Below, in pieces: positions 33,003-50,263 of a DNA stretch of 64,000 nt. The stretch's first letter is position 1, and each line of letters opens with the position of its first letter. The stretch comes from Favolaschia claudopus (taxonomy: Eukaryota > Basidiomycota > Agaricomycetes > Agaricales > Mycenaceae): contig JAWWNJ010000060.1 of the NCBI GenBank assembly GCA_037176885.1, positions 1 to 64,000 of the forward strand, given 5' to 3'. Made by a program: the position numbers and the translations under genes. The notes beneath the pieces are model-generated. The model had not been told where the DNA came from, made no database searches, and saw only the letters and a program-made list of their open reading frames with translations.

Positions 33003-34427
33003 TGAAACGCTTGCTATATGTTTATTGTATAACTTTATTCGTTGAGATAATAAATCCCTTCAAACAAAATCCACAACTTCAGCTTCGCGTGCGAGTCGGG
33101 GTTCCAGTAACGTATCTACTGTGGCAATCTGACTATATTCCCCAATCCGAGGATATATGTTATACAATTCGAGGTGTCTTGACTCGATAAAACTTGCTTT
33201 GAGTTGGCGCGACTCGATCCTATTTGAGCCTTTCGAGCTCAGGACTTAGTTTTTCGCAATGTCGGTTGGTTGTAGGAGTCTAGGTAATTTATCTTGTTCA
33301 AGTTTCCTTTCAATCCGATGGAATATGGCACTAGACCGTTAAGTCGCGCTTAATCCCTTGTACTCGCGTTTCCCTTATCTCAGAATTCCGTTTCACGCGT
33401 CTGATTCCCGTTCAAGTTCACTTATTTCACGCGTTTAACAATTCTCTGATCAAATCACAAGTCCAATTTATAGATTGAAAACAAAACAGAAAACTAAGTA
33501 AGTTCCCTGGGTTGTCCCACTGGATGTGAACACTCTTTACTGAACGTGCGGCTGATAGCTTACACGGACAATCAAGGAGGGAGCAATCCACTGAAGCCCA
33601 GCTAATAATTTACAGGCTTTATATACTACGCTCGAATAAATATTTACATCTTAATTGGGTATCTACCTACGTGTCCTGGTACGTGTATTGTCCTTATTTA
33701 GCAGACGAGGCTGTTAAGTCACGCCTGTGTGTTGTGGTTGCACGCGCGAGTAACGTGTAAACACACGAGGAGTCATTATCGCATCTATCGCGTCGATCCC
33801 TCGTGATGGTCACGTGTGCGTGATGGATCCTCCCGATCCTTGACTTGATACTGGCTTCTATCCCACTCATCGCGGCTAGCCTTTCGAGGATACGAATGTT
33901 CCTGCTTCATGCCTCGCCTCGAGGTAAGGTCCTTCCGGCTCTTGCCAGAACTTCTAATTCGTCCTTGATTAGAGAAATCTCCTCAAGATCACTGATCCTT
34001 TGATGATCCGCTCTCCGGCATCTTCGGCAATCCTTCTGCCGCTACTCGGTTTCTCTTGGTTCGTCGTTCCGCGACTCGAATCCCTTGATATTGGTCTAGG
34101 CGCGCTGCCTAAGTATTCCTTCAATGTTATCCCATGTTCCTTGATGTCCCCTTAGGTCCCAATTCAATTGGTAGAATGGTTGGACTTAGAAGAGGGATTG
34201 TTATCCTCGACTACCGTGTATGAGTATTCATTTCTGGATAATCATAAGTCGTAGACAAGTCTAGCTTTCCTTTGCATCATTTAGTTAACAGCGCGGGTAC
34301 GCTTTAACCCTCTGAGATATATCCTAGAGATGTCCCTTTATTCCTCTTAGTTCAAACACGCGTTATATAATATTAAACATGTTCGAAAATTGAGAAAACA
34401 CGGGGTGTTTTCATCCCAGGCCTATCA
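33003..34427 (-). repeat. 3' LTR (left LTR in window)
   Basis: Starts tgaaacgc and ends cctatca on the plus strand; 1,425 bp. Every stretch I compared is identical to 48839-50263. Its right edge faces the antisense gene at 34926, so it could also act as a plus-strand promoter for the extra genes, which is inference. Confidence 0.95.
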
Positions 34428-34444
34428 TCTCCCCATTTCATAAA
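34428..34444 (-). promoter_or_regulatory. Polypurine tract next to the 3' LTR
   Basis: On the minus strand the bases just before the LTR read gaaatggggaga, a purine run in the position where plus-strand DNA synthesis primes in LTR elements. A 16-bp copy of this motif recurs inside the element at 39472-39487. Confidence 0.8.
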
Positions 34445-34925
34445 TCTCGAGCGTCCCCGCTCGACTCTGCACGCGCGTTATTCCAATCTCGAGGCGTAAT
34501 TCTGATTACGTCACTGCCGACACTCCTGAGGTCACCCGAGCGGAACCAAAATTCACTTTGATCTAGTTACTTTTATGGTAACTCTCGCCTCGGCTAATCC
34601 CAATTCCTTAATTTTCAGCGCGGGGCGGTCCTCTCTCAAGGCAAGCCTACTTCAGAGCCACCTCTGCTCTTGTGGTCATTGATATGACTAGTGTTCACGT
34701 GTTAGCCACGCCCCTTTGCTGATTTTGCCCAATTTTAGGCCAGTTTGGAATTTCCTCGACATATTCATTTGTCGCGGCTTCGAAGAAGCTGCGTCAATTC
34801 AGAGAGAATCTGGGCTCAAGACTTCTTAGAGCTTATCATTTCCGTGGGAGATGGTCCGTGCGCAACTGTATTGGCTGCGCAACTAAGGACAAACTCCCCA
34901 TTCTTTTCTCTTTCCAACCCCCACT
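34445..34925. other. Leader between LTR and first antisense gene
   Basis: About 480 bp with no gene. It probably contains the 5' UTR and part of the promoter of the plus-strand gene at 34926, together with the 3' LTR. No TATA box is clear. Confidence 0.4.
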
Positions 34926-37882
34926 ATGAACTTCACCAACGACTTCCCCGCCGTCCGTGTCCTTGCGCGCAAGAAGTTTGGTCTTCCGGTGCCTGACGAC
35001 TCTGTCTCCGCCCGTGTTCTGATCACGGAGGAGCACGTCAAGTTTCCCCCAAAAGCGCCGTATTATCCGCTTCATGCCGCCGAGGCTGGCCCCTTTCTCC
35101 CTCTTACTGCAAACGACGTTGAATCCCTCGCCCCCCTGGAACACCCAACCGTTGTTCGCTTTCTGGGTCTCCTCAAGGATCCTAGTCGAGTTCTCCGTAC
35201 CCACCCGCTCTTTCTCCAGACGATCATCAATGACATTCGTCCTGTTCTGGTACGTATATCTCGTCTTTTCGTTCCTTCCTGAGGCTCAACCTTCCCTCAG
35301 ACCCACTTCCGCGACAAGCACTTCAAAACTGTGCCTCTGACGCCGCTTTTACGCCAACTCTTGTGCGGTATCGCGCAGGTCGTCGAGATCTGCCGTGTCC
35401 ACAACATCGTGGTTCTCCCAGTCGAGCCCAAGTTCCTCCTTCCAGCTGCGATCCGGGATGACCAGGAGCGCCCGTGGATTAAGGTAATTTTTCTTTTCAA
35501 GGCCTCGACTCGAATTTCACGCTTGTTTTCCAGGAGGAGTTCCTTCCTATGAACTTCCAATTTGCAAATTCTTTCGATCACTACCAGGATCACTTCGTCG
35601 AGGACCCTTTGCTTACGCCCGCCGAGCACGATCATCTGGTCGAGATCAAGTGCAAGGAGTTGGACGAGTGGTGCCTCCTGCATGACGCCCTTGTTCCGCT
35701 CCGCGCCAAGAACACTCCCTTGAGTTCCCAGGACGTGGCTCGCGTCGTCCAAGTGATCGAGAAGGCTGCCCCACTCTATGTAAGTTCGGGCTTATTCTTT
35801 CGATCATTAGACTTTCTTTCTCATCGATCCCCTTTTAGTTCGACACCATTGAGCTCATCGGTCGAGAGACGCCTTTCACTCGCCGCTACACCAACACCAT
35901 GCTTTCTCTTATAGATATCGTTCCCGCGAAGCACCATCCTTACGGGTGGAAGCATAGTTTCAAGAACCGCCCTGCTGAGGTACGATTTTTGTCTATTATT
36001 TCCCTTCATGATCTCAAACTGATTCCTTCTCGTAGATGACCGAGTTCCTGCCCGTCGGCTTCCGATTTCCTTCCGAGAAGTTTGGTTTTAGTCGCGAGCC
36101 CTTCCCGTTGCTCGACTTGAAGGAGCACGGCGACCCTGTGGTGGACGCCTGGCGATTCCATTGTCGCGAGGCTCAGCGTGAGGCTAAACCACCTAGCCCT
36201 CCGCCTTCCGTTACCAAGCGCGGCAAGAATCGCTCTCGCCACTCGTCCGCTCATCCCGAGCCGCCCTCGCCCGCGTCGATCGCCATGAATCTTAAAATAC
36301 AGAGAGATGAGCTCCTCCGGGCCAAGGAGAAGGAACCACTTTTCCTTCCTTCCGATTCGCCGGTTTCCGACCATGCTCCAGTCGACGAGGACCCCCTTCT
36401 ACTGAAGGAATCTCAGCCTTCCGTTACCGTGGTCATTCCTGCTTTGTCTCGTCCCGGATCCGCCACGAAGAATCCTAAGTCGATTCTGAAGGTTCGTATT
36501 CCCTTTTGAATCTCTAAGTCTTTTATATATGAACTTTTCCAGAAACCCGCGGCTCCTTCTCGTGATGTTTCTCTTCCTCCCGTAGTGACCGAAGTACCTT
36601 CCTCTCAGGACGACGCTCCTCGCAACTCGAGAAAGCGTGTCTCGTCGCCTTCTTCAACCGTGAGTATTTCTGATTGATCCTCGCTTTTTGATCAATCTTT
36701 TTATCTAATCTTAATTGCTTTCTAGCGTCCTCAAATCAACATGTCCTCGCGCGGTCGCGCTGAGTCCGTCGATATTGATTTGGACTTCCCCGAAGCTCCC
36801 GCAGGCGATAATTCACCCTCGCCTGCCGATCTAGAGTCTTCTGAAGGGGAAGACGAGCTTTCCGACAACGAGCGTCCTCAAAAACGCCAGAAGACATCGG
36901 CTCGTGGCAACTCCGCCACTCCGTCTCCTTCGAAAAGGGGACGTAGCAAGTCCACCGCCGTCCTCGACGAGACCGTTGTCCTTTCAGATGGCAAGATCAT
37001 CGCTAAGAATCCGGAGACGTTTTTCCCTCCGTCCTCGCGCGTCCATCGTACTGGCAACACAGGCCCTGTTCTTCCTGCCGACGCCGAGCCGATCAAGGTC
37101 GAGAAATTGTCGAACGTCCTGACTTTGGCCAAGTCAGATAATATTTTGGTAAGACGCTCGACTTAATCTTTTCTACTCGCGCTAACTCTAATTATCCCTT
37201 AGCTCAACGGTGCCTGTCTGCCCTGCTTGCAGAGTTCCCGCGACGATTGCGAACACGGGTTGTTCGCCCGTTGCTCTAACTGCGCTAAGAAGCATGGCTC
37301 TCACTGCAACCATAGCTTCACAGCCAAGGAGCAGAAGGGTCTGGCTCGCGCCCTCGAGCCTTACTCCAGGTTATCGATGAACCGTACGTCCCTTCTTTCT
37401 AACTTCCTTATTTGTCGTTTCTGACCCCGTTTTCAGGCGTAAATTCGGAGATCGACGCGTTTTCGGACGCGTTCGAGATCTACGAGGGCCTTCGTCAGCC
37501 CTTCCTCAAGGCGCGTGCGTTGGTGATTTCCCTTGGGTCCCATGTCGGGGATCGCCTTCGCGAGAACATAACCGCATACGGCCCAGAGAACGTGCCGGGG
37601 CTCGAGGAACTATCGGATGAGAATCGTGAGGCGGTGATGCGTGCCTGGGGAGAAGGTGTAAACCTTCTCGCGCCAGAGGCCGAGGTTTCCAGACATTCTT
37701 CTCCATTCAACGTCGAAGACGACGAGGAGGATGTCGTGGGCTTGGCTCGCGCCGCTGAGGAATCGCTTCAGGCTCATCGTCGCGCGCAGGGTCCCGTCTC
37801 TGACCCTGGCGCCGGTTCTTCTCGTGGTCCCGTTCGCGTTTCGCCTCGCAGGAACAAGGGTAGGAGGGAGGACGAGATCTAG
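34926..37882 (+). CDS. Antisense element gene X1: 838-aa protein with Cys-rich Zn-cluster-like motif
   Basis: Nine exons join without any stop: 34926-35249, 35301-35483, 35534-35779, 35839-35979, 36036-36491, 36543-36659, 36726-37148, 37203-37383, 37437-37882. Introns are 50-66 bp with GT..AG ends. The N-terminal half (about 450 residues) looks folded; the middle is Ser/Pro-rich and charged (SEGEDELSDNERPQKRQKTS), with likely nuclear-localisation character. Exon 8 carries a six-cysteine motif, C-x2-C-x7-C-x7-C-x2-C-x7-C, with extra His residues, near a Zn2Cys6 pattern. It does not match any retrotransposon protein I know. It lies wholly within the LTR element, antisense to gag-pol. Function is unknown; DNA or chromatin binding is a guess. 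Confidence 0.82.
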
Positions 37883-38335
37883 TCGCGCTGCTTGAATTTT
37901 CGCGTAAGTCCCGTTTTCCTTTCATCCTTTCTTTCCCTTTAACGCATCTTAGTAGAATTTTTATGAATATCTACTGCTGCCCGTCGCGCGCGCTTTCGCG
38001 CTTCAAAATTTTTCTCTTTACATACACCGCTGTTCGCTACGATGAATACATTCCGTAGCTATATTCCATAGTATCCTGTACGCGCGTTCGCGCAGGCCGA
38101 ACAATACAGTGTATTGCCTGCAAAACTTAAGTGCGAACTCAGGATTATCTTAAGTCAAATTAGCCGCTAAAGATAATCAGCGCGCCAATTCGCGTGTTTG
38201 ATTATCGATGACGTTTGACCCATCAAGGGAGCAACCGGTCCAATTGTTCCGAGTACTCCTTTGAGAAAAGATTCACACGGTCACTCATACTTAAGTTTTG
38301 TCTCGACTTGAATTTCCTTAGGCTTGTAATCCTTC
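37883..38335. other. Spacer between antisense genes X1 and X2
   Basis: About 450 bp. It contains the 3' end of X1 and probably the promoter of X2. A block rich in gcgcgc (about 37,985-38,000) is the only visible peculiarity. Confidence 0.4.
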
Positions 38336-39000
38336 ATGATCACCCCCAATACGCCCAACATCTTCGACGCTACTTCTTCGCCTGGTTGCTGGCCTGTGGC
38401 CCATCCTGCTGCTTATAAACGCGCCCCAAACTTCTTGAGTTACATGAAGCTGCTCGCGCTCGATGGCGTACGTTCTTCCAGAGGATCCTTCAGCGTGTCA
38501 AGGCTAACATTTCTCCAGTTCTATGAGAAGTGCGCGAATTGTCGTGGCTTCAAATACGTTTGTCACAACGAAGGCTGGGGCAAACCATGTCTCGAGTGCA
38601 AGAACACTGGGAACATCTGTCCCTTCGCAGAACGCTCCGAATTCTTATGCCACATCAAGATGGAACGCGAGAAATTCCTTCATAATTTCTGCGGCCCTAG
38701 TGCGTCTTCCTTTGACTGTCTCTCGAGTCGAACTAAAGTAATTTCAATTCAGACCGTGAGGAGGGCCTTATCCAGTTCTACGCCAACGCTCTTCAAGCTT
38801 TCATGGCGTTCGACCAGGCAGCCAATCCTAAGGCTAAGAACTTTCGCCGCGATGGATTTGTAGGACACTTATCCTTAATTTCCGACCCTTGGGCTGTTCA
38901 GTTCCTTGTTGATCATGTTGATCATCCTGACTTTGATTTTACTCTGGTAGAGAAACAGGCGATTATGTTCCAAGCCTCCATTGTTCCTGCACCTATGTAG
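38336..39000 (+). CDS. Antisense element gene X2: 186-aa protein with Zn2Cys6-type cysteine spacing
   Basis: Three exons (38336-38467, 38519-38699, 38753-39000) join in frame to 186 residues and a TAG. Exon 2 reads YEKCANCRGFKYVCHNEGWG and continues with CLECKNTGNIC, giving C-x2-C-x6-C-x8-C-x2-C-x6-C. That is the spacing of the fungal Zn2Cys6 binuclear cluster, although the usual run of basic residues between cysteines 2 and 3 is weak. The C-terminal part is probably helical. The gene is antisense to gag-pol inside the LTR element and lies between two other extra genes. A DNA-binding or regulatory role is possible but not shown. Confidence 0.82.
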
Positions 39001-39512
39001 TCCTGTACTTCTCCCTTAGTACACGATACACCTTAAATTTACGTCGCGCGACGGAATTTCCTTATTGAACTTGTTAGGACAAGATTGACGTGTGAAGTCC
39101 GATCGAAGTCGTGACTCCGTCGATCTTTCCCGTGACTTATGATCGAGTCGCGCAAATTCTGTCTTCTTAGTTCAATCGGATTCCTTTCCGCTTTGTAAAT
39201 TATCTATAACCGGTGTCCAGATTGCGTGTTCTGGTTCTAAGGCACGTGAGATCCTCGATATATCACGTTTTCTTCCCTTAGGCGGTGTATTTTTCCGCGT
39301 AGGCAAGGCAATCTCGTGACTTTTGATCGCGGTCACGTTTCTCAGGAACCCAGTAATTACGCGCGAGTCGAATCTCGACTCTGTATCCATAGGCTTCGTG
39401 CCACGTCTTTTAACGTGTCTAGGGAGTGACCAATGAAGTCCCGCCTGACTTTGACGCGATTTACTAGTCTCCTCCCCATTTCATAAAATTTAACTGTCCT
39501 CAGTTAACACGT
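39001..39512. other. Spacer between antisense genes X2 and X3, with internal polypurine motif
   Basis: No gene. At 39472-39487 it carries an exact 16-bp copy of the polypurine motif that abuts the 3' LTR, 25 bp before the ATG of X3. Confidence 0.6.
39472..39487 (-). promoter_or_regulatory. Internal copy of the polypurine tract
   Basis: The plus strand reads ctccccatttcataaa, the same 16 bp as 34429-34444. On the minus strand the purine run extends as gaaatggggaggag. It could serve as a second site of plus-strand priming, or mark an old junction where the extra genes joined the element. Confidence 0.55.
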
Positions 39513-40982
39513 ATGACGCCTGGCCCTTCCTATAAAGAGTTCAAGTTCTTTCGACCATTCACCAGTCTCTTCGACGACTACCCTTCTCTAGTAGCATTAA
39601 CTATGTCTCCTTCTATTCGCGCTCACCTCACCACCGCTCAATATGAAACCCTTATTTCTATTGGGGACAAGGTTGCCGCGACTCGCTATCCCGACCGTTC
39701 CAAGCAGCGCGCCTTCCTTGACCAGCAAACCGTCCTCTTGGTGCGTTTGCTTAATTCCTAGGATTCGCATTGTTGCTGATTCTACGATTCAATTATTTTT
39801 CAGGATGGTATGTCGGCTCTCCTCCCTGAGATTGCCAAGGAGAAACCGCTCTACGACACCTACTTTGCCGTCAAGAACAGTTACCACCAGTCCGCTACCA
39901 ATCCCAACGGTGCCATCGGTGGCCGCTACCCCGTTATCGTCGACCTCTGCGCTCGCATCAAGTACGAACGCGACCGTCTTCGTTCCGGCACCACTGCCAC
40001 TCAACAAGCTCATCGTACTGAGCTCGAGGAAGCGCGCGCTGTCGCTGAGGATTTAGAGAGCAAGCCTTCTAAGAAGGGTAAAGGCAAGGGGAAGGTGAGT
40101 TTCGAATTAACTCCGTCGCGTTTGTCTAATAATTTAGGCAAAGGCGAAGAAGTCGAAGGCTACCGTCGAGGATCCCAACGATTCTCCCTTCGACGATTCC
40201 GAACTGCCTCTCCCTACCGGTGAGCTCGACGATGTCATGATTGTCGATACTGAGCCGGTATGTACCTAGGTCTCGCCTCTCGACTCGAGGTTATTGACCA
40301 ACTCTGCGATGCTCTTCGCGCTTTCCAGGTCGAGGCTACTGCGCCTGGTTCTCGCTCGACTCAGTCTTTGGACGAGCGTCCTCATGTGAGCAACCCTTTT
40401 CAAACTTTGAAAATCCTCGGGCAATTTGCTCGATTAATTCGTCGGGACAGCGTGCCTCTCAGTCGAGTAGTGCGCGCCCTTCCTCGGTACGCCTCTCATT
40501 TCTAAGAATGAAGGGTTTTGACCGAAGGGCTCCCCCTTATCTCAAGGCCATGGCTGTTCTTGCCCGTACTGACCCCGACTCAGTATCTGGACCCGTTCAT
40601 GAGGACTTCCCGGTCCCACCACCTCGCAAGCGATCGCGGCCGTCCAACTTTGCCTATGAGGATTCCGCAGAACAGTATACCGGTGTGTTATCATCTTTCC
40701 CAGATTTAAGTCGCGCTTATTTATTATTTAGCGACCGAGCTCGCCACTAACGGCGAAGCAGTCCAGAAAACTGTTGCCGAAGCTACTAAGCTCGTTGAAG
40801 CCAGCTCCTCCGATGATAACCTTGGATCCCTTCGACTACAGGAGGCGGACCTCAGGAGCCGGATTGGATTTGCCAACTCGCAACTTCGATACACCCTCAA
40901 TCACCGACAGCTCCTCGTCGATGAGCTCAAACGAGTTCTTGACCTTCAACACGACCGCTCCGCCAAAGCTCCCTCGACTTGA
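39513..40982 (+). CDS. Antisense element gene X3: 372-aa protein, unknown function
   Basis: Seven exons join in frame: 39513-39740, 39804-40094, 40138-40257, 40329-40385, 40451-40486, 40547-40682, 40732-40982. The start is MTPGPSYKEFKFFRPFTSLF. The middle has a predicted helix with KYERDRLRSGTTATQQAHR and ELEEARAVAEDLE, then Lys-rich and acidic stretches. The C-terminus is probably coiled-coil (LGSLRLQEADLRSRIGFANS). Exon 5 is only 36 bp. No family is recognised. The gene ends 420 bp from the pol stop and converges with pol tail to tail. Confidence 0.75.
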
Positions 40983-41401
40983 GATCCTCGAACGTCCTCA
41001 GAACCCAAAGTTCGTTTATTATTCGGGCTTTAGCTTTTCTGCGATTTTCAGCTGATTCTAGTTCTTTCGAATTAGCATCGAGTCCTCCAATCGCACCCAT
41101 CGTCGTACTTCCAAGACTACTCATTGTCCTCATTGTGACACATCTCGCCATCACCTTGCTTTTTGCTAGTAATTTATTTTAGACGCCTCGAGTTTACCTA
41201 TGCAAACCCTTCGCCCAACTCCTATTACTGTCTTTACTTGATCTCCTCGAGCAGTTCTATCCTCTTTGATACGCCCAACTCGTGATACGCACACTCCTTC
41301 ACCTCTGTTTCATTTCTTTATGCCTTATGCCCTATGCAATATATGTCTTTACCGCGGTACTTTGCGTTTGAACCGTTCCCGGCAATCACCGCTAAGTTAT
41401 C

Positions 41402-44400
41402 TCACGGTTGAACCTTTCTCCGAGATGACCGACGAGGCTGATCTTCGTACGAGACTTCCTTTCGAATCTCGTCTAAGTCCAGTTCCTCGACTTGGTCTTC
41501 CTCGAATTCATCTTCCTGTTCTTCTCCATCGTCTTCGTCCTGTAGCTCCATCCCTGACTTAACGTGAACTTTACGGAACTGTAAATCTTGACCCGAATAT
41601 TCATCTGAGTCCTTCATCGCAGCCAGTTCGTCAAGTTTTTGCGGAGACAAGTCGATTAAGTCTAGGATAGTTCCTGGCAGCTCGAGTTTCTCTCTTTGTT
41701 CAAAAGGTATCACTCGGAATTGAGCTATTTTGCCTTGGAAGACTGAACCGTCCAGTTCGCAACATATATATGCGCCGCCTTTGGCACGTCTAACTACCAC
41801 CATGGGTCCTAAGTATCGAGGGTGCATTTTCCTGTTCAGCGACTTCTCAGTAGTCGTATTCCTGACTAGGACTAGATCGCCTGGTTGGAAGTTATAATCT
41901 TTTATCTTCCCGCGATTCTCCTCCTCGTATTTTCTGACCATCTTCCGTTTCTCCTCACTAACTCGTTCCCGCATTTCCTCCACATGTACTGAATGCTTGG
42001 CGAGTGCTTTAGCTCTCAAACCAATTAGTTCAGCAGTGGGAATTGGCGCGCCTGGATATTCTACCAACCAGGTTGCTTCCTCGATGTCCAAAGGTAATAT
42101 GGGATGGGCGCCACATACTGCAAAGAATGGAGAACATCCCATTCCTCTTCTTACAGTTATACGGTCCGCCCATAATACTTGAGGGAAGAACCAATACCAT
42201 TTCTTAACATCACCGCCGGTTGCCTTGTACAATGATTGCCGGATATCCCAGTGCCCTCTTTCCACAGTTCCGTTCGCCTGGGAATTGTAGGCCGAGATTT
42301 TAATTCCAACTACCCCGTACTTCGAGTTTAACCATTTTAGCGCGGCAATGAATTGCTTGGCATTATCAGTTACAATCCACTCTGGACATCCCCAACGACA
42401 GATTACATCCTCGAGTAAGAACTTGCCGATAGTTTCGGCATCCTCGGATCTCATCGGCCGGCCTTCAACATACCGCGACAAGGAATCCCTCGCCGCTATT
42501 GAATACCTGTGACCGTTCGAGACTTCACCCATTATCATGACATCGGTGTGTATCTTCTGGAAGATGCTTGGAGTCAAAGTAGGTCTCGGCGGGATTTTCA
42601 ACAGAGCTTTCTGCCTTTGTTGACATATTTTGCAGGTATTGCAAAACCAAGTCACATCGCGTTCAAGTTCCGGCCACCAAAATCGAAGCTCGATCTGAGA
42701 ACGAGTCGCGTATATTCCTCGGTGCCCCAAGGCGTTATGCGATGCCCTCATCATGTACATTCGATGTTCCTTCGCGACTACCAATTTATGCATCGAACCT
42801 TCTCCTTTCCTATATAACTTTCCACCCTTGCTCAAGAAGAAGTATCTGGCGAATTTCATGAATTTCTTGAATTCCTTGTTATCCATTCCAGCAGGTCTAA
42901 CAAGAGGACTCTTTAGCCATTCCTTCACAATCTCGATTCTTTCGTCCTGGGCCAATGCTGCCCCGGATCGGTGATCCTCGACATATTTCTCTCGCTTGTC
43001 TGGGTTATTTTTAAGTTCTAGGTCTGGGAGTAAAGGTTCTCCCCCTTCCACCGATACTATATATTGCGGCATTACAAGTCCTTCGGCCTTGTAAGTCTGA
43101 ACAACCTTTTCCTGGATGGCTTTCTCTTCCGTCCGGGCGACCGTGATTTCATCTTCGAAGTCTTCTATCGAGGAGGCAGCTCCTTCCAATCCTTGGAAGT
43201 ATCCTCCACGTTCGTCGATCTCTTCTTTGAACTCATCGAAGTCGAGGGGTTGTTCACAATTATAGTCCCAATCTTCATGATTCTCCGGGGATGGATTTTG
43301 ATCCAACCCTTCCTCTGTATTGGGCCATTCCTCGTCTCCTGGTTGCGCTTTTCTCCGCGACAACCCATCTGGCGGGAAGGTTACTCCTCTGACGTGCTTA
43401 AGCTTGAAGTGAAACATCAGGATTTGCTCGATCCAACGATTAATCGTCGCGTTTGGTCCCATACCAGGGTTATTCAACATTCCCTGAATATAGAGCGCGT
43501 CAGTCTCAACTACTAACTTCCTGCACCCCAGAAGCCAATATTGCATTGCCTCTAATGCTCGCTTTAATCCGTACAACTCGCGCTTCGGCTGGGAAAACCT
43601 GCTTTCCCTCTGGTTCAAAGTTATAGACGCAAACTTAGCGTAATACTTCTTCAATTTATCAAGGACATCATGTTGATAAATTTGAATCCCAATTGCCATC
43701 CATGAAGTGTCCACAGCAAGTACGATATCAGAGTCCCAGTCGTAATTCAGAGGTTTCAGCGCGGGACATACTTTTATCGCTTCCTTGAGTGCATTCATAG
43801 CCGCGACTTGTTCTGGACCCCATACGAATTCAACATTATTCCTTAATAACTTCGTAATAGGTCTACAGATCTTTGCGTATCCGTCTATGAACATCCGCAG
43901 GACCCCAGTTGTGCCTAGGAATTGTCTTACGCCAGAGACATCCTCGAGAGGGCCCCAACGAACAATAACTCCGATACGGTCAGTTCCTGGTCTTCTGCCT
44001 TCAAAAGAGCAAATGTGCCCGACTACGGGAAAGACATCCCAACATAATATACTCTTCATACCTGAGAACGTTCCTCCACTATACTTGAGTCGTTGAATTA
44101 CCCGGTTCAAGTTCAGGAAGTGTTCCCAGATAAACCTCCTAATTCCGGGGTTCTCGGGTATAGTTTCATACTTTCCGTCTTTATCCTGATATCGAGTTCC
44201 CCCTCCTCTGATTGGTACATCATCGATGTAGGGAATCGTTACATGCGGGATTTCATCCCTTAGAATATATGTGACGTCGTCATGAAATATTGGAACCGAG
44301 TTTGTCCACCCTTGAGGAAGCTTGACTAATCGAAGCGCGCCAAAAGGTGTCTGGAACGTTGTAAAGTCCCTAGATCCCTCTGCGATATCTCGATGGTCAT

Positions 44401-45529
44401 ATCCTGAGTACAAGTCGAGGCATCCTCCACATGCTCTTCCAGCGAAGTGGTCTGCCAACTCATCTGTCGCGGGAGGCACTCCTGAGTGAGCAATGGTCAC
44501 CGCGTTTAGTGGTTCCAAGGCATGTACCAAGCGAATGCTCTTCCCATCCTTCTTCACTACTCCGAAGAATTTACTCCGGTACGAGGAATTTGAAGGCTCA
44601 TAGACCCCCGCGTCTAGCTTCTTCTTTATAACCTTACAAAATTCCTCGAGTTGCCCGCGCGGAATTGGGATACTTCTTTCTACCCAAGTCTCATGCTCGA
44701 TCACAGGGAACTCAACTGGAGGGAAGAATTCATGTTTGAAACTTCCTCGCTCCGAATCGTCCCATGCGAATCCTGCCTCTTGCTTCATCATTAAGTCGTG
44801 CATGAGTTTCCGCTCTTCTTCCCAAAGAAAATCCCCTTCATGCTGCTTGTCTATTATTTCCTTACGCTCAGCGGTATACCTTCCTGTAGGTACGAAGTCC
44901 GCTGGTTTAGGATTTAATGGCGGCATGTCCGCTAGAGGATCTCCAATTATCTCGCGCTTGATTCTATATTTCTCCGGGAGTTCTGTATATACTGGTCGGA
45001 TTTTCAATCCTACTGGTTTATACTTCTTTCCCGCGAGAACCGAAACCTTTGGTACTTCTTCCTTGTCTTCCTCAGGACAAGTGCTACAAGGTTCTGGAGA
45101 TATAAAATCCGCTGAGGCGCAACACCCACACCTTATCCCTTGAGTAAAGGAGTGTACTTTCCTTATCTCGACTGGTGTTTTGGTGCGTGGACCTTCTTCG
45201 GGCTTCTCGGGGATGTTTGATTCCCCTTGTACCTCGACTTCCGGTCCTTCCCTGGTACTCCAAGTAAAGACACCGTACTTCTTGGTTGTCTTATTCTTTT
45301 CAAGCTTCTTACCCTTGCGGGTCTTCTGCCTAAACTCTTGGAACAAGGTCTGCGCCCTCCTATCCCTCTTTAATGCTCTTGATCCAGTTGACGCGCTAAT
45401 ATACGCCTCCTGGATCTCCGTCTCATCGAATGTAAGCCCTCTCGGCTTAAAATACCCCTCGATCTCTAACTCCTTATTCTCATTAAATCCAAGTTTTAGC
45501 GCCACTTCTCCTCGTTCTTGCAGATGCAC
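41402..45529 (-). CDS. Retrotransposon pol: reverse transcriptase, RNase H, integrase (1,375 codons)
   Basis: One open frame. RT has CLDLYSGYDH and the catalytic YIDD box (about residue 433), with LPQGWTNSVPIFHDDVT between them. RNase H begins near residue 600 (VLAVDTSW) and has PKRELYGLKRALE and the ETDALYIQG motif. Integrase has an HHCC zinc finger (HNALGHRG at about 931, CNTCKICQQR at about 963) and a D,D-35-E core (IHTDVMIM about 994, IVTDNAKQF about 1053, NGTVERGHWD about 1089). A GPY/F-like segment (HPRYLGPMVVVRR) follows, then an acidic tail ending in SSRRKVQP. There is no obvious chromodomain. The domain order RT-RH-IN places it with Ty3/gypsy. The frame is -1 relative to the protease frame and starts with GTG, so it is probably made by frameshift or reinitiation. 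Confidence 0.93.
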   Translation of the reverse strand: MHLQERGEVALKLGFNENKELEIEGYFKPRGLTFDETEIQEAYISASTGSRALKRDRRAQTLFQEFRQKTRKGKKLEKNKTTKKYGVFTWSTREGPEVEVQGESNIPEKPEEGPRTKTPVEIRKVHSFTQGIRCGCCASADFISPEPCSTCPEEDKEEVPKVSVLAGKKYKPVGLKIRPVYTELPEKYRIKREIIGDPLADMPPLNPKPADFVPTGRYTAERKEIIDKQHEGDFLWEEERKLMHDLMMKQEAGFAWDDSERGSFKHEFFPPVEFPVIEHETWVERSIPIPRGQLEEFCKVIKKKLDAGVYEPSNSSYRSKFFGVVKKDGKSIRLVHALEPLNAVTIAHSGVPPATDELADHFAGRACGGCLDLYSGYDHRDIAEGSRDFTTFQTPFGALRLVKLPQGWTNSVPIFHDDVTYILRDEIPHVTIPYIDDVPIRGGGTRYQDKDGKYETIPENPGIRRFIWEHFLNLNRVIQRLKYSGGTFSGMKSILCWDVFPVVGHICSFEGRRPGTDRIGVIVRWGPLEDVSGVRQFLGTTGVLRMFIDGYAKICRPITKLLRNNVEFVWGPEQVAAMNALKEAIKVCPALKPLNYDWDSDIVLAVDTSWMAIGIQIYQHDVLDKLKKYYAKFASITLNQRESRFSQPKRELYGLKRALEAMQYWLLGCRKLVVETDALYIQGMLNNPGMGPNATINRWIEQILMFHFKLKHVRGVTFPPDGLSRRKAQPGDEEWPNTEEGLDQNPSPENHEDWDYNCEQPLDFDEFKEEIDERGGYFQGLEGAASSIEDFEDEITVARTEEKAIQEKVVQTYKAEGLVMPQYIVSVEGGEPLLPDLELKNNPDKREKYVEDHRSGAALAQDERIEIVKEWLKSPLVRPAGMDNKEFKKFMKFARYFFLSKGGKLYRKGEGSMHKLVVAKEHRMYMMRASHNALGHRGIYATRSQIELRFWWPELERDVTWFCNTCKICQQRQKALLKIPPRPTLTPSIFQKIHTDVMIMGEVSNGHRYSIAARDSLSRYVEGRPMRSEDAETIGKFLLEDVICRWGCPEWIVTDNAKQFIAALKWLNSKYGVVGIKISAYNSQANGTVERGHWDIRQSLYKATGGDVKKWYWFFPQVLWADRITVRRGMGCSPFFAVCGAHPILPLDIEEATWLVEYPGAPIPTAELIGLRAKALAKHSVHVEEMRERVSEEKRKMVRKYEEENRGKIKDYNFQPGDLVLVRNTTTEKSLNRKMHPRYLGPMVVVRRAKGGAYICCELDGSVFQGKIAQFRVIPFEQREKLELPGTILDLIDLSPQKLDELAAMKDSDEYSGQDLQFRKVHVKSGMELQDEDDGEEQEDEFEEDQVEELDLDEIRKEVSYEDQPRRSSRRKVQP

Positions 45530-46776
45530 TAATTCATCGAAGCATGGCGAAAAACCTGCTCCGCTTTATCTGGGTCAGCAGTTCCACCCGATTCCTCATC
45601 CTCGACTTCCTCAACCGTGACTCGAGATTGCTTTGATGAGCTTTTCTCTCGTCCACGAGGAAACGTAGGCATTGAACACCTCTTTCCCGTGTTGGGATCC
45701 TTCAAGGTAACCGTCTGAGAATCATTCCTGCCATTATTTACCTGGCATTCAGTCAGAATCTCAAAGGGTCTCCCCAAAAGAACCTTATACGCCGGACCTC
45801 GAATTATATGTACTTGTAGATAGACAGTCATGTCCCCAAATTTGAAGGGAACATTCTTGGCTAAACCTACCGTTCGTTCAATACTTTTATTCGCGCTTTC
45901 CATATGTACAATAATGTCTGGGTCCCAGGATAATTTCAGCAGATTAGCCGTCTCGAGAGACATTGACACAACCTGCGATCCCGAGTCCATAACACATTCT
46001 ACTCGCGCCTGCTTATTTATAGTCGGGAATATTACCCTTAAATTAGCAGAGTCGCGCGCTACGAATATTGGTCTCTTCTCGTCTGTATAGATTTGCCTAG
46101 GCCTTTCACCTGGCTCGAGATTCTCCAAATATTGAAGGTAGGGGTCCAACACAGTGACCGCTCCTTGTGGTACTTCTTCGGTGGTCTGGTTTTGAATAAA
46201 CACAGAGTTCAACGGAGGTAGTTCGCTCAGGCTAAGTGCGTCATACTCCAGTCGCGGTTCTTCTTCCTCGTCCTCGAAAGGTAGGGCTTGTTCAACTTCA
46301 TCTGCGAACATAACTTTCTTAACCGCGTCCCTGGGAACTGGCTTTCTAACTTTAGTTACGTCGCGTTTAATATTTGCCCTAACCTCTGGCGAAACTCCTA
46401 CTAAGTCCCGCACATCCAAAGTCACTTCTGTACGAAGTATCTTATCCGCGACCTTCCTTCCTAGTCCTTCTCTCTGGACAGGGGCCCTGACTTGATACTC
46501 CCGCGGCTCGATTTCCGTGGTCTGTTGTTCTAAATCAACCAGTTGATTTTCTGTTCGATTTCTAACCGGTGGAACCGATACATAAGGAAGTTCAACATAA
46601 GCCCTGTTTTCTACAGGTCTTTTGTCTTTGTCGCGCCTATCTTCAGACTCGACTTCCTCAGCCGCTTTGCTTCTCCAATCTTTGTCTTTATCAGCCCGAC
46701 CTTTTTCTTTCCGGCTCTCAAGGGGCTTAGCACTGTCGGATTTTTGATGGCTCGCCCCTATCCCTGAGCTCTTCAA
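45529..46776 (-). CDS. Retrotransposon protease-containing frame (about 415 codons)
   Basis: The frame opens at the end of gag and has no ATG at its start, so it is presumably translated as a Gag-Pro fusion by -1 frameshifting. The first 230 residues are charged and probably disordered. An aspartic-protease region follows, with the active-site ECVMDSGSQVVSM (about residue 262) and a flap-to-dimer part ending VLLGRPFEILTECQV. It ends at TAG (45529-45531) and overlaps the pol frame by about 45 bases. Confidence 0.88.
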   Translation of the reverse strand: MKSSGIGASHQKSDSAKPLESRKEKGRADKDKDWRSKAAEEVESEDRRDKDKRPVENRAYVELPYVSVPPVRNRTENQLVDLEQQTTEIEPREYQVRAPVQREGLGRKVADKILRTEVTLDVRDLVGVSPEVRANIKRDVTKVRKPVPRDAVKKVMFADEVEQALPFEDEEEEPRLEYDALSLSELPPLNSVFIQNQTTEEVPQGAVTVLDPYLQYLENLEPGERPRQIYTDEKRPIFVARDSANLRVIFPTINKQARVECVMDSGSQVVSMSLETANLLKLSWDPDIIVHMESANKSIERTVGLAKNVPFKFGDMTVYLQVHIIRGPAYKVLLGRPFEILTECQVNNGRNDSQTVTLKDPNTGKRCSMPTFPRGREKSSSKQSRVTVEEVEDEESGGTADPDKAEQVFRHASMN

Positions 46777-48278
46777 AAATTTGGTCCGGGCTTTCCTTGA
46801 CTCTGATTCCTCGTCTGAGCAAATTGCTCTTGAGTCGCGGGAAGCTCTCCTACTTGTAAACCTCTCATTATCAAGGTCTGAAATATCCCGTTCATGTCGA
46901 GATTATTTCCGGCCAAAGGCATTGACTGACTTTGGGCCATATAGGTGGGTTGAACCACCTGTGGGACTTGATTTTGACCAGTAAGCTGTTGTTCAGCTTT
47001 CTGAAGTTTTACCTTCAGAGTCTTTATCTCGTCCATAGCCAACTCTTGGTCCCAACCGGTAGAGGTATCACTCTCGGAATTATAGAACGATTCGTAGGTA
47101 GCTTGCCAATTTTGGCCAACCGCCTTGCTCTTCCAATAGTTTTCTACTCTCAGTTTCTGACTTCCTTGTCCGTGAGGAATGAAATTTCCGTCTCCTAGCT
47201 TATGGCTTCCGTTCTCTATCACTAGATGCCCCTTCTTGATGTGTTCATCTTTATAATGGCAATCGCGCGAATAGTGTCCGTTTTCCTCGCAATAGAAACA
47301 TTTACTTTCACCCCTACGTTCCTGTCTTTCACCCGGTGGACCTTGTCGAGATTGGGGTTGCGTGTTATACGCGTAACTCTGTCGCGGATATTCGCGTTGA
47401 GTTTGATGAGGGGGAGGGTCCTTTACATAATTCTGTAAAGTCTTCAACACTTCCTCGTGTCGCAGTTCTCCCGACCTTTGTATGAGAGCATATTGATCTC
47501 GGAGTTGAGCAATGGCTCCATTTATTTCCTCGATCTTCTCTTCATACGGCTCGACTTTAACCATTGGGGTTATCGCCGTCTGCCTAGCTTCCGAGTCTAT
47601 CTTCAACGACGGAGCTTTGTGCTGTTTGGAGGCCAATGTCTCAGCGAGTTTTATCAACTCTTCCAATTTTATTGGATCCTCCTTGCGGTCATCATTATCC
47701 TTGTCCGCGACTCCTGCAAGCGCGGGAAACTGAGTCTTAATTAACATAGTACTGTCAATTGATCCTCTAAGAGTCGTAGCGAAGCTAGATTCTAGAGTTC
47801 CCAAATATTGCTCGCATGCTACCTGGTTAGTCATTAACGCAGGCGCGACATATAATTTCTTGACTTCTCTCAAGAATTCTATGCCGAATCGTCTAAGACG
47901 TCCTTCTTCGGTAACCGCTATCCCACGGTTGCGTCGACATAATTGCCTCAAAAGTTCAACAGTTCCAGCGCGCTCCGATTTGATTTCTGGATAACTGAGA
48001 TAGACTTCACTAAGGAAGTCATCGTAGGTACCAGTCTCATATTTACTGAGCGTCCGCCAGACGTCTTTCTTTTTCTTAGGCAAGTAATTGGTGATCTGGA
48101 GTTTCTTTTCCTTGTCATCCGTGATTCCTCCTAACTCGAATATTTGTCCAACATGGTCCACGAAGGTCATAAGATCCTCATAGTCGTCTGTTGTAAATTT
48201 CGGAGCATTGGAATCCCAGGCATGAGGAACTTTGAAACTCGCGATCCGTCTTTCCGTTCTATCTTGTTGATCCGCCAT
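46773..48278 (-). CDS. Retrotransposon Gag (501 aa)
   Basis: The ATG at 48278 starts MADQQDRTERRIASFKVPHA. The central part has the helical character of gypsy capsid proteins (ITDDKEKKLQITNYLPKKKK). A CCHC zinc knuckle, CFYCEENGHYSRDC, lies at about residues 325-340. The TGA stop (46773-46775) overlaps a slippery heptamer that leads into the protease frame. Gag would form the particle that packages the element RNA in the cytoplasm. Confidence 0.92.
   Translation of the reverse strand: MADQQDRTERRIASFKVPHAWDSNAPKFTTDDYEDLMTFVDHVGQIFELGGITDDKEKKLQITNYLPKKKKDVWRTLSKYETGTYDDFLSEVYLSYPEIKSERAGTVELLRQLCRRNRGIAVTEEGRLRRFGIEFLREVKKLYVAPALMTNQVACEQYLGTLESSFATTLRGSIDSTMLIKTQFPALAGVADKDNDDRKEDPIKLEELIKLAETLASKQHKAPSLKIDSEARQTAITPMVKVEPYEEKIEEINGAIAQLRDQYALIQRSGELRHEEVLKTLQNYVKDPPPHQTQREYPRQSYAYNTQPQSRQGPPGERQERRGESKCFYCEENGHYSRDCHYKDEHIKKGHLVIENGSHKLGDGNFIPHGQGSQKLRVENYWKSKAVGQNWQATYESFYNSESDTSTGWDQELAMDEIKTLKVKLQKAEQQLTGQNQVPQVVQPTYMAQSQSMPLAGNNLDMNGIFQTLIMRGLQVGELPATQEQFAQTRNQSQGKPGPNF
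46776..46782 (-). promoter_or_regulatory. Programmed -1 frameshift heptamer A AAT TTT at the gag/protease junction
   Basis: On the minus strand the gag frame ends CCA AAT TTT TGA. A AAT TTT fits the X XXY YYZ rule, and a -1 slip there enters exactly the frame of the protease ORF. The stop codon follows directly. I did not find a strong downstream pseudoknot by eye. Confidence 0.75.
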
Positions 48279-48838
48279 TCTGCCTCGACTTAAATCTTCT
48301 GAACCTAGAGTCTGAGAACTGTTTTGTGAGTCGAGATTTTCTCTCCTCTCAATTATAGGTTCCTGGCTCGTTTGTGGTTGTGAAGAAGAAGCCGTGCTTA
48401 TTTCTTGATACGCTTTTGCTCGAGCAGAGGTTTTGCCTCTAACTTCGGCTCTACCTTGTTCGGCAGGCGTTTGTGACTTTGCCTTCTTCTTTGAAGGCAG
48501 GCGAGGTAACTCTTGTGGAGTTTTATGCCTGTCGGAACGTCTGTGTAGTGGTTTTGGAAAACCAGTTGAAGATTGTTCCCCGTCTCCCGAAATCTCGAAA
48601 GACTCCAGTTACAAAGTGTCTGTGTTCTAGTTTTACTGAATCTAAGATCCAGTTGCGACTTTTCTTGTCCAAGTCGCGCTTCGAAGCCTTAAGAGCTCTT
48701 CGAAGGATATGCCCGAGTCGCGGCTAGAATTTAGCGCGCCTTTGTAGCAAATCTAGTTCCAAAAGCCAATAGGCCTTGAATGTATAAATTACTTCTATGA
48801 AGTAATAGCCAAATGAACCCCTCGCGGTGGGCTCCAGA
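48279..48838 (-). other. Untranslated leader of the retrotransposon
   Basis: About 560 bp between the 5' LTR and the gag ATG. It contains the primer-binding site and presumably the packaging signal. No coding sequence is recognised. Confidence 0.6.
48820..48836 (-). promoter_or_regulatory. Candidate tRNA primer-binding site
   Basis: On the minus strand, two bases after the LTR end, the sequence TGGAGCCCACCGCGAGG begins with TGG, as expected for pairing to a tRNA 3' CCA end. I cannot name the tRNA from memory; matching against the host tRNA set would settle it. Confidence 0.65.
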
Positions 48839-50263
48839 TGAAACGCTTGCTATATGTTTATTGTATAACTTTATTCGTTGAGATAATAAATCCCTTCAAA
48901 CAAAATCCACAACTTCAGCTTCGCGTGCGAGTCGGGGTTCCAGTAACGTATCTACTGTGGCAATCTGACTATATTCCCCAATCCGAGGATATATGTTATA
49001 CAATTCGAGGTGTCTTGACTCGATAAAACTTGCTTTGAGTTGGCGCGACTCGATCCTATTTGAGCCTTTCGAGCTCAGGACTTAGTTTTTCGCAATGTCG
49101 GTTGGTTGTAGGAGTCTAGGTAATTTATCTTGTTCAAGTTTCCTTTCAATCCGATGGAATATGGCACTAGACCGTTAAGTCGCGCTTAATCCCTTGTACT
49201 CGCGTTTCCCTTATCTCAGAATTCCGTTTCACGCGTCTGATTCCCGTTCAAGTTCACTTATTTCACGCGTTTAACAATTCTCTGATCAAATCACAAGTCC
49301 AATTTATAGATTGAAAACAAAACAGAAAACTAAGTAAGTTCCCTGGGTTGTCCCACTGGATGTGAACACTCTTTACTGAACGTGCGGCTGATAGCTTACA
49401 CGGACAATCAAGGAGGGAGCAATCCACTGAAGCCCAGCTAATAATTTACAGGCTTTATATACTACGCTCGAATAAATATTTACATCTTAATTGGGTATCT
49501 ACCTACGTGTCCTGGTACGTGTATTGTCCTTATTTAGCAGACGAGGCTGTTAAGTCACGCCTGTGTGTTGTGGTTGCACGCGCGAGTAACGTGTAAACAC
49601 ACGAGGAGTCATTATCGCATCTATCGCGTCGATCCCTCGTGATGGTCACGTGTGCGTGATGGATCCTCCCGATCCTTGACTTGATACTGGCTTCTATCCC
49701 ACTCATCGCGGCTAGCCTTTCGAGGATACGAATGTTCCTGCTTCATGCCTCGCCTCGAGGTAAGGTCCTTCCGGCTCTTGCCAGAACTTCTAATTCGTCC
49801 TTGATTAGAGAAATCTCCTCAAGATCACTGATCCTTTGATGATCCGCTCTCCGGCATCTTCGGCAATCCTTCTGCCGCTACTCGGTTTCTCTTGGTTCGT
49901 CGTTCCGCGACTCGAATCCCTTGATATTGGTCTAGGCGCGCTGCCTAAGTATTCCTTCAATGTTATCCCATGTTCCTTGATGTCCCCTTAGGTCCCAATT
50001 CAATTGGTAGAATGGTTGGACTTAGAAGAGGGATTGTTATCCTCGACTACCGTGTATGAGTATTCATTTCTGGATAATCATAAGTCGTAGACAAGTCTAG
50101 CTTTCCTTTGCATCATTTAGTTAACAGCGCGGGTACGCTTTAACCCTCTGAGATATATCCTAGAGATGTCCCTTTATTCCTCTTAGTTCAAACACGCGTT
50201 ATATAATATTAAACATGTTCGAAAATTGAGAAAACACGGGGTGTTTTCATCCCAGGCCTATCA
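48839..50263 (-). repeat. 5' LTR (right LTR in window)
   Basis: 1,425 bp, starting tgaaacgc and ending cctatca on the plus strand, like 33003-34427. In the element's orientation it drives gag-pol. It has a TATA-like attatataac (minus strand, about 50,205) and an aataaa-like motif (about 50,175). It is followed by gcgg (50264-50267), the target-site duplication. Confidence 0.95.

Follow-up and report, generated by a model that had tools for sequence, protein, structure and literature searches.

Antisense genes have long been listed in reviews of plant LTR elements, which, as far as they describe them, leave their function unsettled. In fungi, the gene brtn of Boty, which we take to be a Ty3/gypsy element, was reportedly described by Zhao et al. 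in 2011. The Boty elements of Botrytis and Sclerotinia carry this gene in antisense orientation between pol and the 3' LTR (PMC7264820). In the plant Ty3 elements Retand, Grande and RIRE2 the region from pol to the 3' LTR measures 2.9-6.6 kb, and almost every recently active Retand cluster carries antisense ORFs; their TRP28 domain is predicted to bind DNA, and a regulatory role has been suggested (PMC11963269, PMC7264820). The HBZ and APH genes of HTLV produce antisense, spliced transcripts whose products are mostly nuclear, several of them reducing sense transcription (PMC10186651). Ty1 encodes its own subfamily-specific self-restriction through p22/p18, and in Ty1/Ty1' mosaics the specificity gene gag has been swapped between otherwise similar elements, the breakpoints lying very close to where the ORF begins and stops (PMC7055915, PMC12530519).

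The window analysed here, a stretch of 64,000 nucleotides from Favolaschia claudopus, contains a 17.3 kb Ty3/gypsy element on the minus strand (33003-50263), with LTR ends TG...CA and GCGG on both flanks as a 4-bp target-site duplication. The assignment follows from the LTRs, a primer-binding-site-like sequence, the polypurine tract, gag, protease and the RT-RNase H-integrase order (Table 1). In Pfam scans, zf-CCHC in gag (E 0.0013; 19.2 bits, cut-off 20.8), gag-asp_proteas in the protease (E 1.8e-5; 25.7 bits, cut-off 28.2) and the RT of pol (19.2 of 29.6 bits) fell below the cut-off, and the RNase H and integrase zinc domains of pol lay above it. Among public proteins, pol has 1,361 relatives at E up to 0.001. 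The element-internal second polypurine-tract copy is exact in 20 of the 21 aligned copies having sequence at that site, with one change in the remaining copy.

Table 1. Features of the element, its antisense genes and the exchanged segment (window coordinates).
Feature	Position	Strand	Remarks
3' LTR	33003..34427	-	1,425 bp; 100% identity with 48839-50263
5' LTR	48839..50263	-	1,425 bp; 100% identity with 33003-34427
Primer-binding-site-like TGGAGCCCACCGCGAGGGG	48818..48836	-	2 nt inward of 5' LTR; read from sequence
Polypurine tract GAAATGGGGAGA (minus strand)	34428..34439	-	adjoins 3' LTR; read from sequence
Second polypurine-tract copy CTCCCCATTTCATAAA	39472..39487	-	element-internal, directly upstream of X3
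gag ORF	46773..48278	-	501 aa; zinc knuckle
Protease ORF	45529..46776	-	415 aa
pol ORF	41402..45529	-	1,375 aa; RT, RNase H, integrase
X1	34926-37882	+	838 aa; 9 exons
X1 exons	34926-35249, 35301-35483, 35534-35779, 35839-35979, 36036-36491, 36543-36659, 36726-37148, 37203-37383, 37437-37882	+	
X1 cysteine motif C-x2-C-x7-C-x7-C-x2-C-x7-C	37203..37307	+	Zn2Cys6-like; read from sequences
X2	38336-39000	+	186 aa; 3 exons 38336-38467, 38519-38699, 38753-39000
X2 zinc-cluster-like motif C-x2-C-x6-C-x8-C-x2-C-x6-C	38531..38620	+	
X3	39603-40982	+	342 aa; 7 exons (372 aa from ATG 39513)
X3 exons	39603-39740, 39804-40094, 40138-40257, 40329-40385, 40451-40486, 40547-40682, 40732-40982	+	
Exchange cassette, X1 and 3' flank	34926..38120	+	sequence divergence; 60-base resolution in two pairs

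The 6,974 bp that separate the pol stop from the 3' LTR (34428 to 41401) hold three genes, X1, X2 and X3, all on the plus strand. An earlier note on this DNA had proposed such a set of multi-exon antisense genes, and the proposal is confirmed: all predicted junctions are GT-AG and in frame, and frames and introns are kept across most loci. For X3 the seven exons stand, and the length is 342 or 372 aa, the longer form, as first proposed, needing the upstream in-frame ATG at 39513. A TATAAA between this ATG and 39603, present in all 21 aligned copies with sequence there, favours the predicted 342-aa product; the extension is likewise open in those 21 copies, so either start is possible. In class D of the X1 alleles described below, x6 replaces the first x7 of the cysteine motif, and a Pfam scan of X1 gave zero matches. 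The cysteine spacing of X2 fits Zn(II)2Cys6, with a match to PF00172 (Zn_clus) below the Pfam cut-off (E 0.15 in the window and 0.013 in the L030 version; 12.7-16 bits against 21); comparison of X2 with solved structures gave no credible match.

Like the Retand-type elements, the window element has a long pol-to-3' LTR region with antisense ORFs, here of 7.0 kb. Membership of X1-X3 in the Retand lineage, defined by the TRP28 protein family, was considered and rejected, PF04195 (TRP28) having no match in X1, X2, X3 or the scanned variants of X1 and X2; the available text of PMC11963269 mentions neither introns nor fungi and describes no hyperdivergent allele classes. X1-X3, whose splicing is predicted from sequence, resemble HBZ and APH as antisense genes of an LTR retroelement; however, HBZ/APH is one gene under the control of the 3' LTR, whereas the starts of X1, X2 and X3 lie 0.5, 3.9 and 5.2 kb from the LTR edge, within the element. 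Boty, likewise a fungal LTR element, also has antisense coding content in the stretch that leads from pol to the 3' LTR, but one such gene is named there, in an ascomycete host, and the account in PMC7264820, as far as it is available, describes no allele exchange of the kind found here for X1. The earlier note knew of no fungal element with three spliced antisense genes; antisense placement itself is already known in plant elements and in Boty (PMC7264820), with one gene named in Boty against three multi-exon genes here.

In the 264.6-Mb host assembly, gag-protease DNA is 94-100% identical across the 40 places scored among 115 candidates. X2 lies on the expected side in 37 of these 40, within 9 kb in 32 and further off, at 11.7-59.6 kb, in five; it was not found at the other three, one of which is near a contig end. 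The block is therefore a feature of the family rather than a one-off insertion. A survey for X2 found at least 37 places, a lower bound because 150 of 173 candidates were scored, and these match 37 gag places one to one in expected side and strand. Among the same 150 scored candidates (of 173) no free-standing host copy of X2 was seen; capture of host genes, which the earlier note had also considered, finds no support, since all 37 X2 places found pair with family gag places. Of the whole block (34428-41401), 16 places give a full-length alignment and one further place aligns over 6,970 of its 6,974 bases, among 25 matches (block matches: 23 scored among 90 candidates); its pieces, where present, keep a single strand and the window order in 25 of 25 loci. 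LTR pairs of the family score equally or nearly so within each pair. Most comparisons among copies give 94-99% identity for LTR, gag, pol and X3, and for X2 as well except for a second version of it, the two versions sharing 87% amino-acid identity. The X1 region is identical between L014 and L015 (C203, C285) and between L021 and L022 (both C48), and L013 and L016/L036 have partners at no more than five differences, so the loci outnumber the independent insertions.

X1 was compared in 29 loci, after dropping L027, L029-L031 and L033, in which all or most of it is missing. Under the window exon borders, 21 of the 29 have 2,517 coding bases and three more have 2,514; the frame is open in 21 and not in eight (several stretches cut short), and two of the open frames, those of L019 and L040, carry an altered splice site. 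X1 introns are GT-AG in 224 of 228 copies, in keeping with the claim that the antisense genes travel with the element, present in many copies, and retain their introns. When the window is set against three copies of other classes, identity in introns 1-4 reaches only 39-58%, and retention of coding length and GT-AG despite this divergence excludes chance. Of 22 loci with X3, 15 carry it intact. Over 105 pairs from 15 copies (omitting L013, L025, L027-L030 and L032), dN/dS is 0.15 for X1, 0.05 for X2 and 0.08 for X3, beside 0.11 for the pol C-end; by this measure all three genes are under purifying selection, as had been supposed.

The 5' half of X1 falls into discrete classes with 64-80% amino-acid identity and dS of about 0.9-2, NG86 values above 1 being close to saturation. 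Between-class dN/dS over codons 1-480 is 0.09-0.20, which shows old constrained alleles, not fast adaptive change. The divergent segment begins no further than about 40 bases from the start codon of X1 (two pairs, 60-base resolution) and ends in the X1-X2 spacer at about 38120, its most divergent portion being about aa 1-500 of X1. Between the window and L018, dS is 0.008 in X3, 0.063 in X2, 0.076 in pol and 1.30 in X1 codons 1-260, and in five between-class pairs the latter value is more than tenfold that of X2, X3 and pol. L012 and L019 are 99.70% identical over 39001-42700 and 99.68% over the LTR stretch 33503-34427, with 65.6% over 34926-36035. A backbone tree of 17 of the loci holding 39001-42700 rejects monophyly of class A (p-AU 1.4e-30). 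Four classes persist, of which A and C are common to both gag groups, each being found with 97-99% gag and with 95% gag; L014 and L024 are intragenic X1 mosaics. These comparisons indicate that X1 classes are swapped as a cassette, even among copies 99.7% identical over X3-pol. Such diverged, exchanged alleles are invisible from a single copy. As in Ty1, a divergent gene is exchanged with a near-ORF-precise border between otherwise similar elements; in Ty1, however, this gene is the sense-strand gag, whereas in the present family gag is uniform and it is the extra antisense gene X1 that diverges. Derivation of a restriction factor from gag, as in Ty1, was likewise rejected for X1-X3: BLASTP against the element's own gag gave no similarity (best X1 E 9).

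With middling confidence we propose that the block is a permanent module in which X1-X3 would act as element-encoded regulators, X1 being the specificity part kept by negative frequency dependence. The three genes would be expressed from their own upstream sequences and spliced from plus-strand transcripts; the replication template would be the gag-pol-sense RNA, and because X1-X3 introns read backwards there, they would survive reverse transcription. X2 with its zinc-cluster-like motif, X1 with its comparable cysteine motif, and X3 most probably act in the nucleus, where they would bind nucleic acid and regulate the element. The old, discrete alleles of the N-terminal half of X1 would be moved by recombination between near-identical elements, and from the contrast in age we infer balancing selection on X1. 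Its simplest selective reason would be negative frequency dependence: the X1 product may restrain, or mark as self, elements or partners with the same allele, so that a rare allele spreads. The outcome would be copy-number or superinfection control encoded by the element, a predicted role that the earlier note also suggested and the reading that we prefer. No target co-varying with the X1 allele was seen in LTR, gag or pol, which are nearly uniform in all classes; an allele-specific repressor of DNA or Gag would thus have no visible matching partner, and recognition would need X1-X1 or something beyond the element. More tentatively, X1 might be a self/non-self recognition gene whose old balanced alleles assign near-identical elements to immunity groups, much like the superinfection-immunity types of phages, the cassette spreading via recombination during reverse transcription. 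If so, antisense placement would be what allows an intron-rich gene in an RNA-copied element. More generally, intron-rich genes can persist in such elements by lying on the strand opposite to the one that the genomic transcript presents to the splicing machinery. The signature of X1, old alleles in a near-identical, recently mobile family, indicates the kind of function to seek, and natural swaps of its alleles already exist among copies.

The uniformity of LTR, gag and pol also agrees with a target outside the element, and it is conceivable, though less likely, that X1 is a counter-defence protein against a variable host silencing or restriction factor, host variation keeping the alleles and the antisense set aiding the element. 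Old, discrete, swapped classes fit such a function too, and host arms races can likewise yield rare-allele advantage; however, the between-class dN/dS over codons 1-480 is well short of values above 1, and no host target of X1 is known. That the X1 classes are remnants of old element lineages or sister families, passed along by introgression or hitch-hiking without selection for variety while recombination and recent bursts homogenised the remainder, seems unlikely. Sister families with pol 74-75% identical have diverged about as much as the X1 classes, X2 too has two diverged versions (87%), and yeast Ty1 and Ty4 are described as swapping segments between lineages and species (PMC7055915; PMC11739139), but four classes persist, A and C in both gag groups, and exchange begins so close to the X1 start codon in the two pairs resolved to 60 bases, with dS in codons 1-260 so far above that of X2, X3 and pol in the five between-class pairs, that one gene is singled out, which selection-free mixing is not expected to do.

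It is highly improbable that the proteins are secondary and that the block acts mainly through antisense RNA, which would give rise to double-stranded RNA and to small RNAs directed at gag-pol. Retroelement antisense transcripts may act in this way, according to the part of PMC7264820 that treats them, and, with 420 bp separating the end of X3 from the pol stop, transcripts that read through would pair with pol RNA; yet protein-level constraint and a near-constant codon number across alleles at dS of about 1 or more show that the proteins matter.

Outside the family, no X1 homolog was found among public proteins (7,991 candidates scored, with a length filter that exon fragments would not pass), and X2 likewise gave no homolog among 100 candidates; these absences weigh little because gene calls from metagenomes hold spliced genes in fragments. 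A search of viral contigs with pol gave zero matches, and prokaryote contigs gave a single distant pol (33%), which sits in the record of a bacterial MAG. Of the 16 sister elements listed (pol 75% identical), 4 have an X3 relative in antisense orientation after pol; in three the distance from the pol match is 332 bp, and in the fourth the relative is on the same side. A further X3 relative, in C105, has no pol match within about 3.2 kb, so X3 relatives are not confined to elements of this shape.

The element carries GCGG at both flanks, and its protease, gag and pol are adjoining open frames; a Pfam scan found in them the domains typical of such frames, several scoring just under the cut-offs. 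The 6,974 bp separating the 3' LTR from the pol stop contain X1, X2 and X3 on the strand opposite to pol; the proposal of the earlier note that these are three intact antisense genes was borne out when they were rebuilt junction by junction, the frame being kept throughout. For X3 there are two candidate starts, 39513 and 39603; a TATAAA between both favours the start at 39603, and the frame from 39513 is also open in all 21 aligned copies having sequence there. The polypurine-tract sequence CTCCCCATTTCATAAA at 34429-34444 recurs within the element at 39472-39487, just upstream of X3, where it is exact in 20 of the 21 aligned copies having sequence there and represents a candidate central polypurine tract. 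Adjoining the element, the ORF at 31522-32250, which we take to be a transporter gene, contains an exact 48-bp tandem duplication (31992-32087).

The element in the window and the copies assigned to each X1 allele class
Feature	Position	Strand	Description or members
Whole element	33003-50263	minus	two identical 1,425-bp LTRs
X1 class A			window, L010-L012, L034
X1 class B			L013-L015; L024 in first part
X1 class C			L016-L023, L025, L028, L035-L038, L040, L042
X1 class D			L026, L032

Across the 460 contigs (264.6 Mb) of the host assembly, the antisense block used as DNA query gave 25 matches, 16 spanning all 6,974 bases; with 23 of 90 candidates scored this count is a lower bound, as are those for gag-protease, X2 and the LTR. 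Whichever pieces of the LTR, X1, X2, X3 and pol a locus retains, they share one strand and follow the window's order in all 25 loci. The gag-protease DNA was found at 40 places with 94-100% identity (40 of 115 candidates scored), and X2 lies on the expected side of gag at less than 9 kb in 32 of them and 11.7-59.6 kb away in five, a spacing that nested insertions could produce; it was not found on that side of the other three, one of which adjoins a contig start, so that X2 would fall beyond the contig. The LTR search (40 of 141 candidates scored) gave eight pairs 15.6-15.9 kb apart, with equal or almost equal scores within each pair, on contigs C60, C47, C64, C49, C97, C205, C191 and C67; none is short by 7 kb, and thus no empty version was seen among these eight. 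A one-off insertion with empty copies elsewhere, which the earlier note had considered, does not agree with the presence of X2 on the expected side of 37 of the 40 gag places scored. Several copies are identical or almost so (L021/L022 on C48, L014/L015 on C203/C285, L016/L036 on C166, and those on C162/C394); some of these sit at equal contig coordinates. Such copies suggest that part of the assembly consists of duplicated contigs or of haplotype contigs; C166 holds two almost identical copies in opposite orientation.

Of 29 loci, 21 keep an open X1 frame (duplicates counted; two of the 21 with an altered splice site), with 838 or 837 codons in every open copy, and GT-AG is kept in 224 of 228 X1 intron copies from the 29 loci, at lengths of 45-69 bases. 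Among 22 aligned copies, X2 is intact in 20 and X3 in 15, some of the remainder being cut or interrupted. Mean dN/dS (105 pairs of 15 copies) is 0.15 for X1, 0.05 for X2, 0.08 for X3 and 0.11 for the C-terminal part of pol, in agreement with the earlier suggestion that the genes are under selection. Judged by this conservation, X1-X3 are real genes and probably spliced. LTR elements replicate by copying through RNA, and therefore the introns must have gone through RNA at each transposition; the antisense orientation would let them survive this stage, an explanation already put forward and consistent with established LTR-element replication.

Identity to the window, profiled in 250-base bins, is mostly 91-100% in the LTR, X2, X3 and pol; the exceptions under 91% are a second X2 version (87-90%, L030 and L032) and stretches absent from a copy, such as the outer 3' LTR of L013-L015. 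In these three class B copies the 3' LTR matches the window's over the inner 747-748 of 1,425 bases only, the outer half being missing or replaced. X1 bins 35003-36002 are 84-92% identical for three other class A copies and 63-81% for 15 other copies with full coverage there. In the pairs measured, the drop starts at about the X1 start codon and the following bases are about 65% identical, while the preceding 500 bases are 97-99% identical outside class D and 86% against class D. The X1 alleles form discrete classes; A, B and C have 64-80% of X1 residues 1-300 in common, and the X1 of L039 is near classes B and C. Between-class dS is 0.87-1.21 among A, B and C (codons 1-480, with dN/dS of 0.09-0.20) and 1.28-2.05 over codons 1-260 (five pairs, D included); in three copies of other classes, X1 introns 1-4 match those of the window at 39-58% identity. 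The window and L018 (class C) differ by a dS of 1.30 in X1 codons 1-260 but of 0.008 in X3.

X1 alleles have been exchanged among elements that otherwise differ little. Along 3.7 kb of X3-pol, L012 (class A) matches L019 (class C) at 99.70% identity, and the figures are 99.68% for the compared LTR stretch and 98.65% for X2; for the initial 1.1 kb of X1, however, identity is 65.6%. The divergence sets in at roughly the X1 start and ends near 38120, before X2. Class A as one clade was rejected on the backbone tree (17 copies; p-AU 1.4e-30), class A and class C alleles each occur with 97-99% gag and with 95% gag, and L014 and L024 are mosaics within X1. The second X2 version (L030, L032, L040 and also L039) has 87% amino-acid identity to the first; both occur with X1 class D, in L026 and in L030 and L032, respectively, the latter two looking like the two pieces of a single element on C4 that has been interrupted.

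The cysteine spacing of X2 is that of a fungal zinc cluster, scoring under the Pfam cut-off, with a better match in the second version (PF00172, E 0.013); X1 carries a similar cysteine motif, and a Pfam scan of X3 gave no match. Together with plant and retroviral precedents, described in PMC11963269, PMC7264820 and PMC10186651, the X1 and X2 motifs point to nuclear regulators as a putative role for X1-X3. The X1 alleles point to a role in specificity. We prefer a model in which X1 exerts self-directed control, with an advantage for rare alleles; its weak point is that no target co-varying with the X1 allele was seen. Alleles kept by an arms race with the host come second in our preference, ahead of a selection-free mixing of old element lineages that left several X1 classes. 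Antisense genes in LTR elements are an already known kind of gene: the antisense gene brtn of Boty, a fungal element, is named in a review (PMC7264820). Among literature titles and abstracts, largely open-access and fungi included, no basidiomycete LTR element with antisense or extra genes was found; a set of three multi-exon antisense genes, one with exchanged old alleles, is a variant not found described in the literature searched.

A pol protein search (34 of 2,133 candidates scored) gave 34 matches, of which 18 belong to the same family (98-100% identity) and 16 to sister families (74-75%). An X3 relative lies on the opposite strand behind pol in at least four of these 16 sister elements (C107, C92, C8 and C108), with 56-67% identity per match and, in three of the four, 332 bp from the pol match; no X3 was among the matches listed for the other 12 (best 118 of 337 candidates scored), nor X1 or X2 among those listed beside sister elements (X1: 54 of 404 scored). 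At least about 20 further X3 relatives, about 60-62% identical, occur elsewhere among the matches listed, including a spliced one at G000 C105:344700-349200 (L044, L045) with no pol match found within about 3.2 kb; such relatives may be part of a different type of element. The contig L043 (VBAU01000103.1), recorded as belonging to a Bacteroidetes MAG but probably eukaryotic contamination, encodes a Ty3-like pol with 33% identity.
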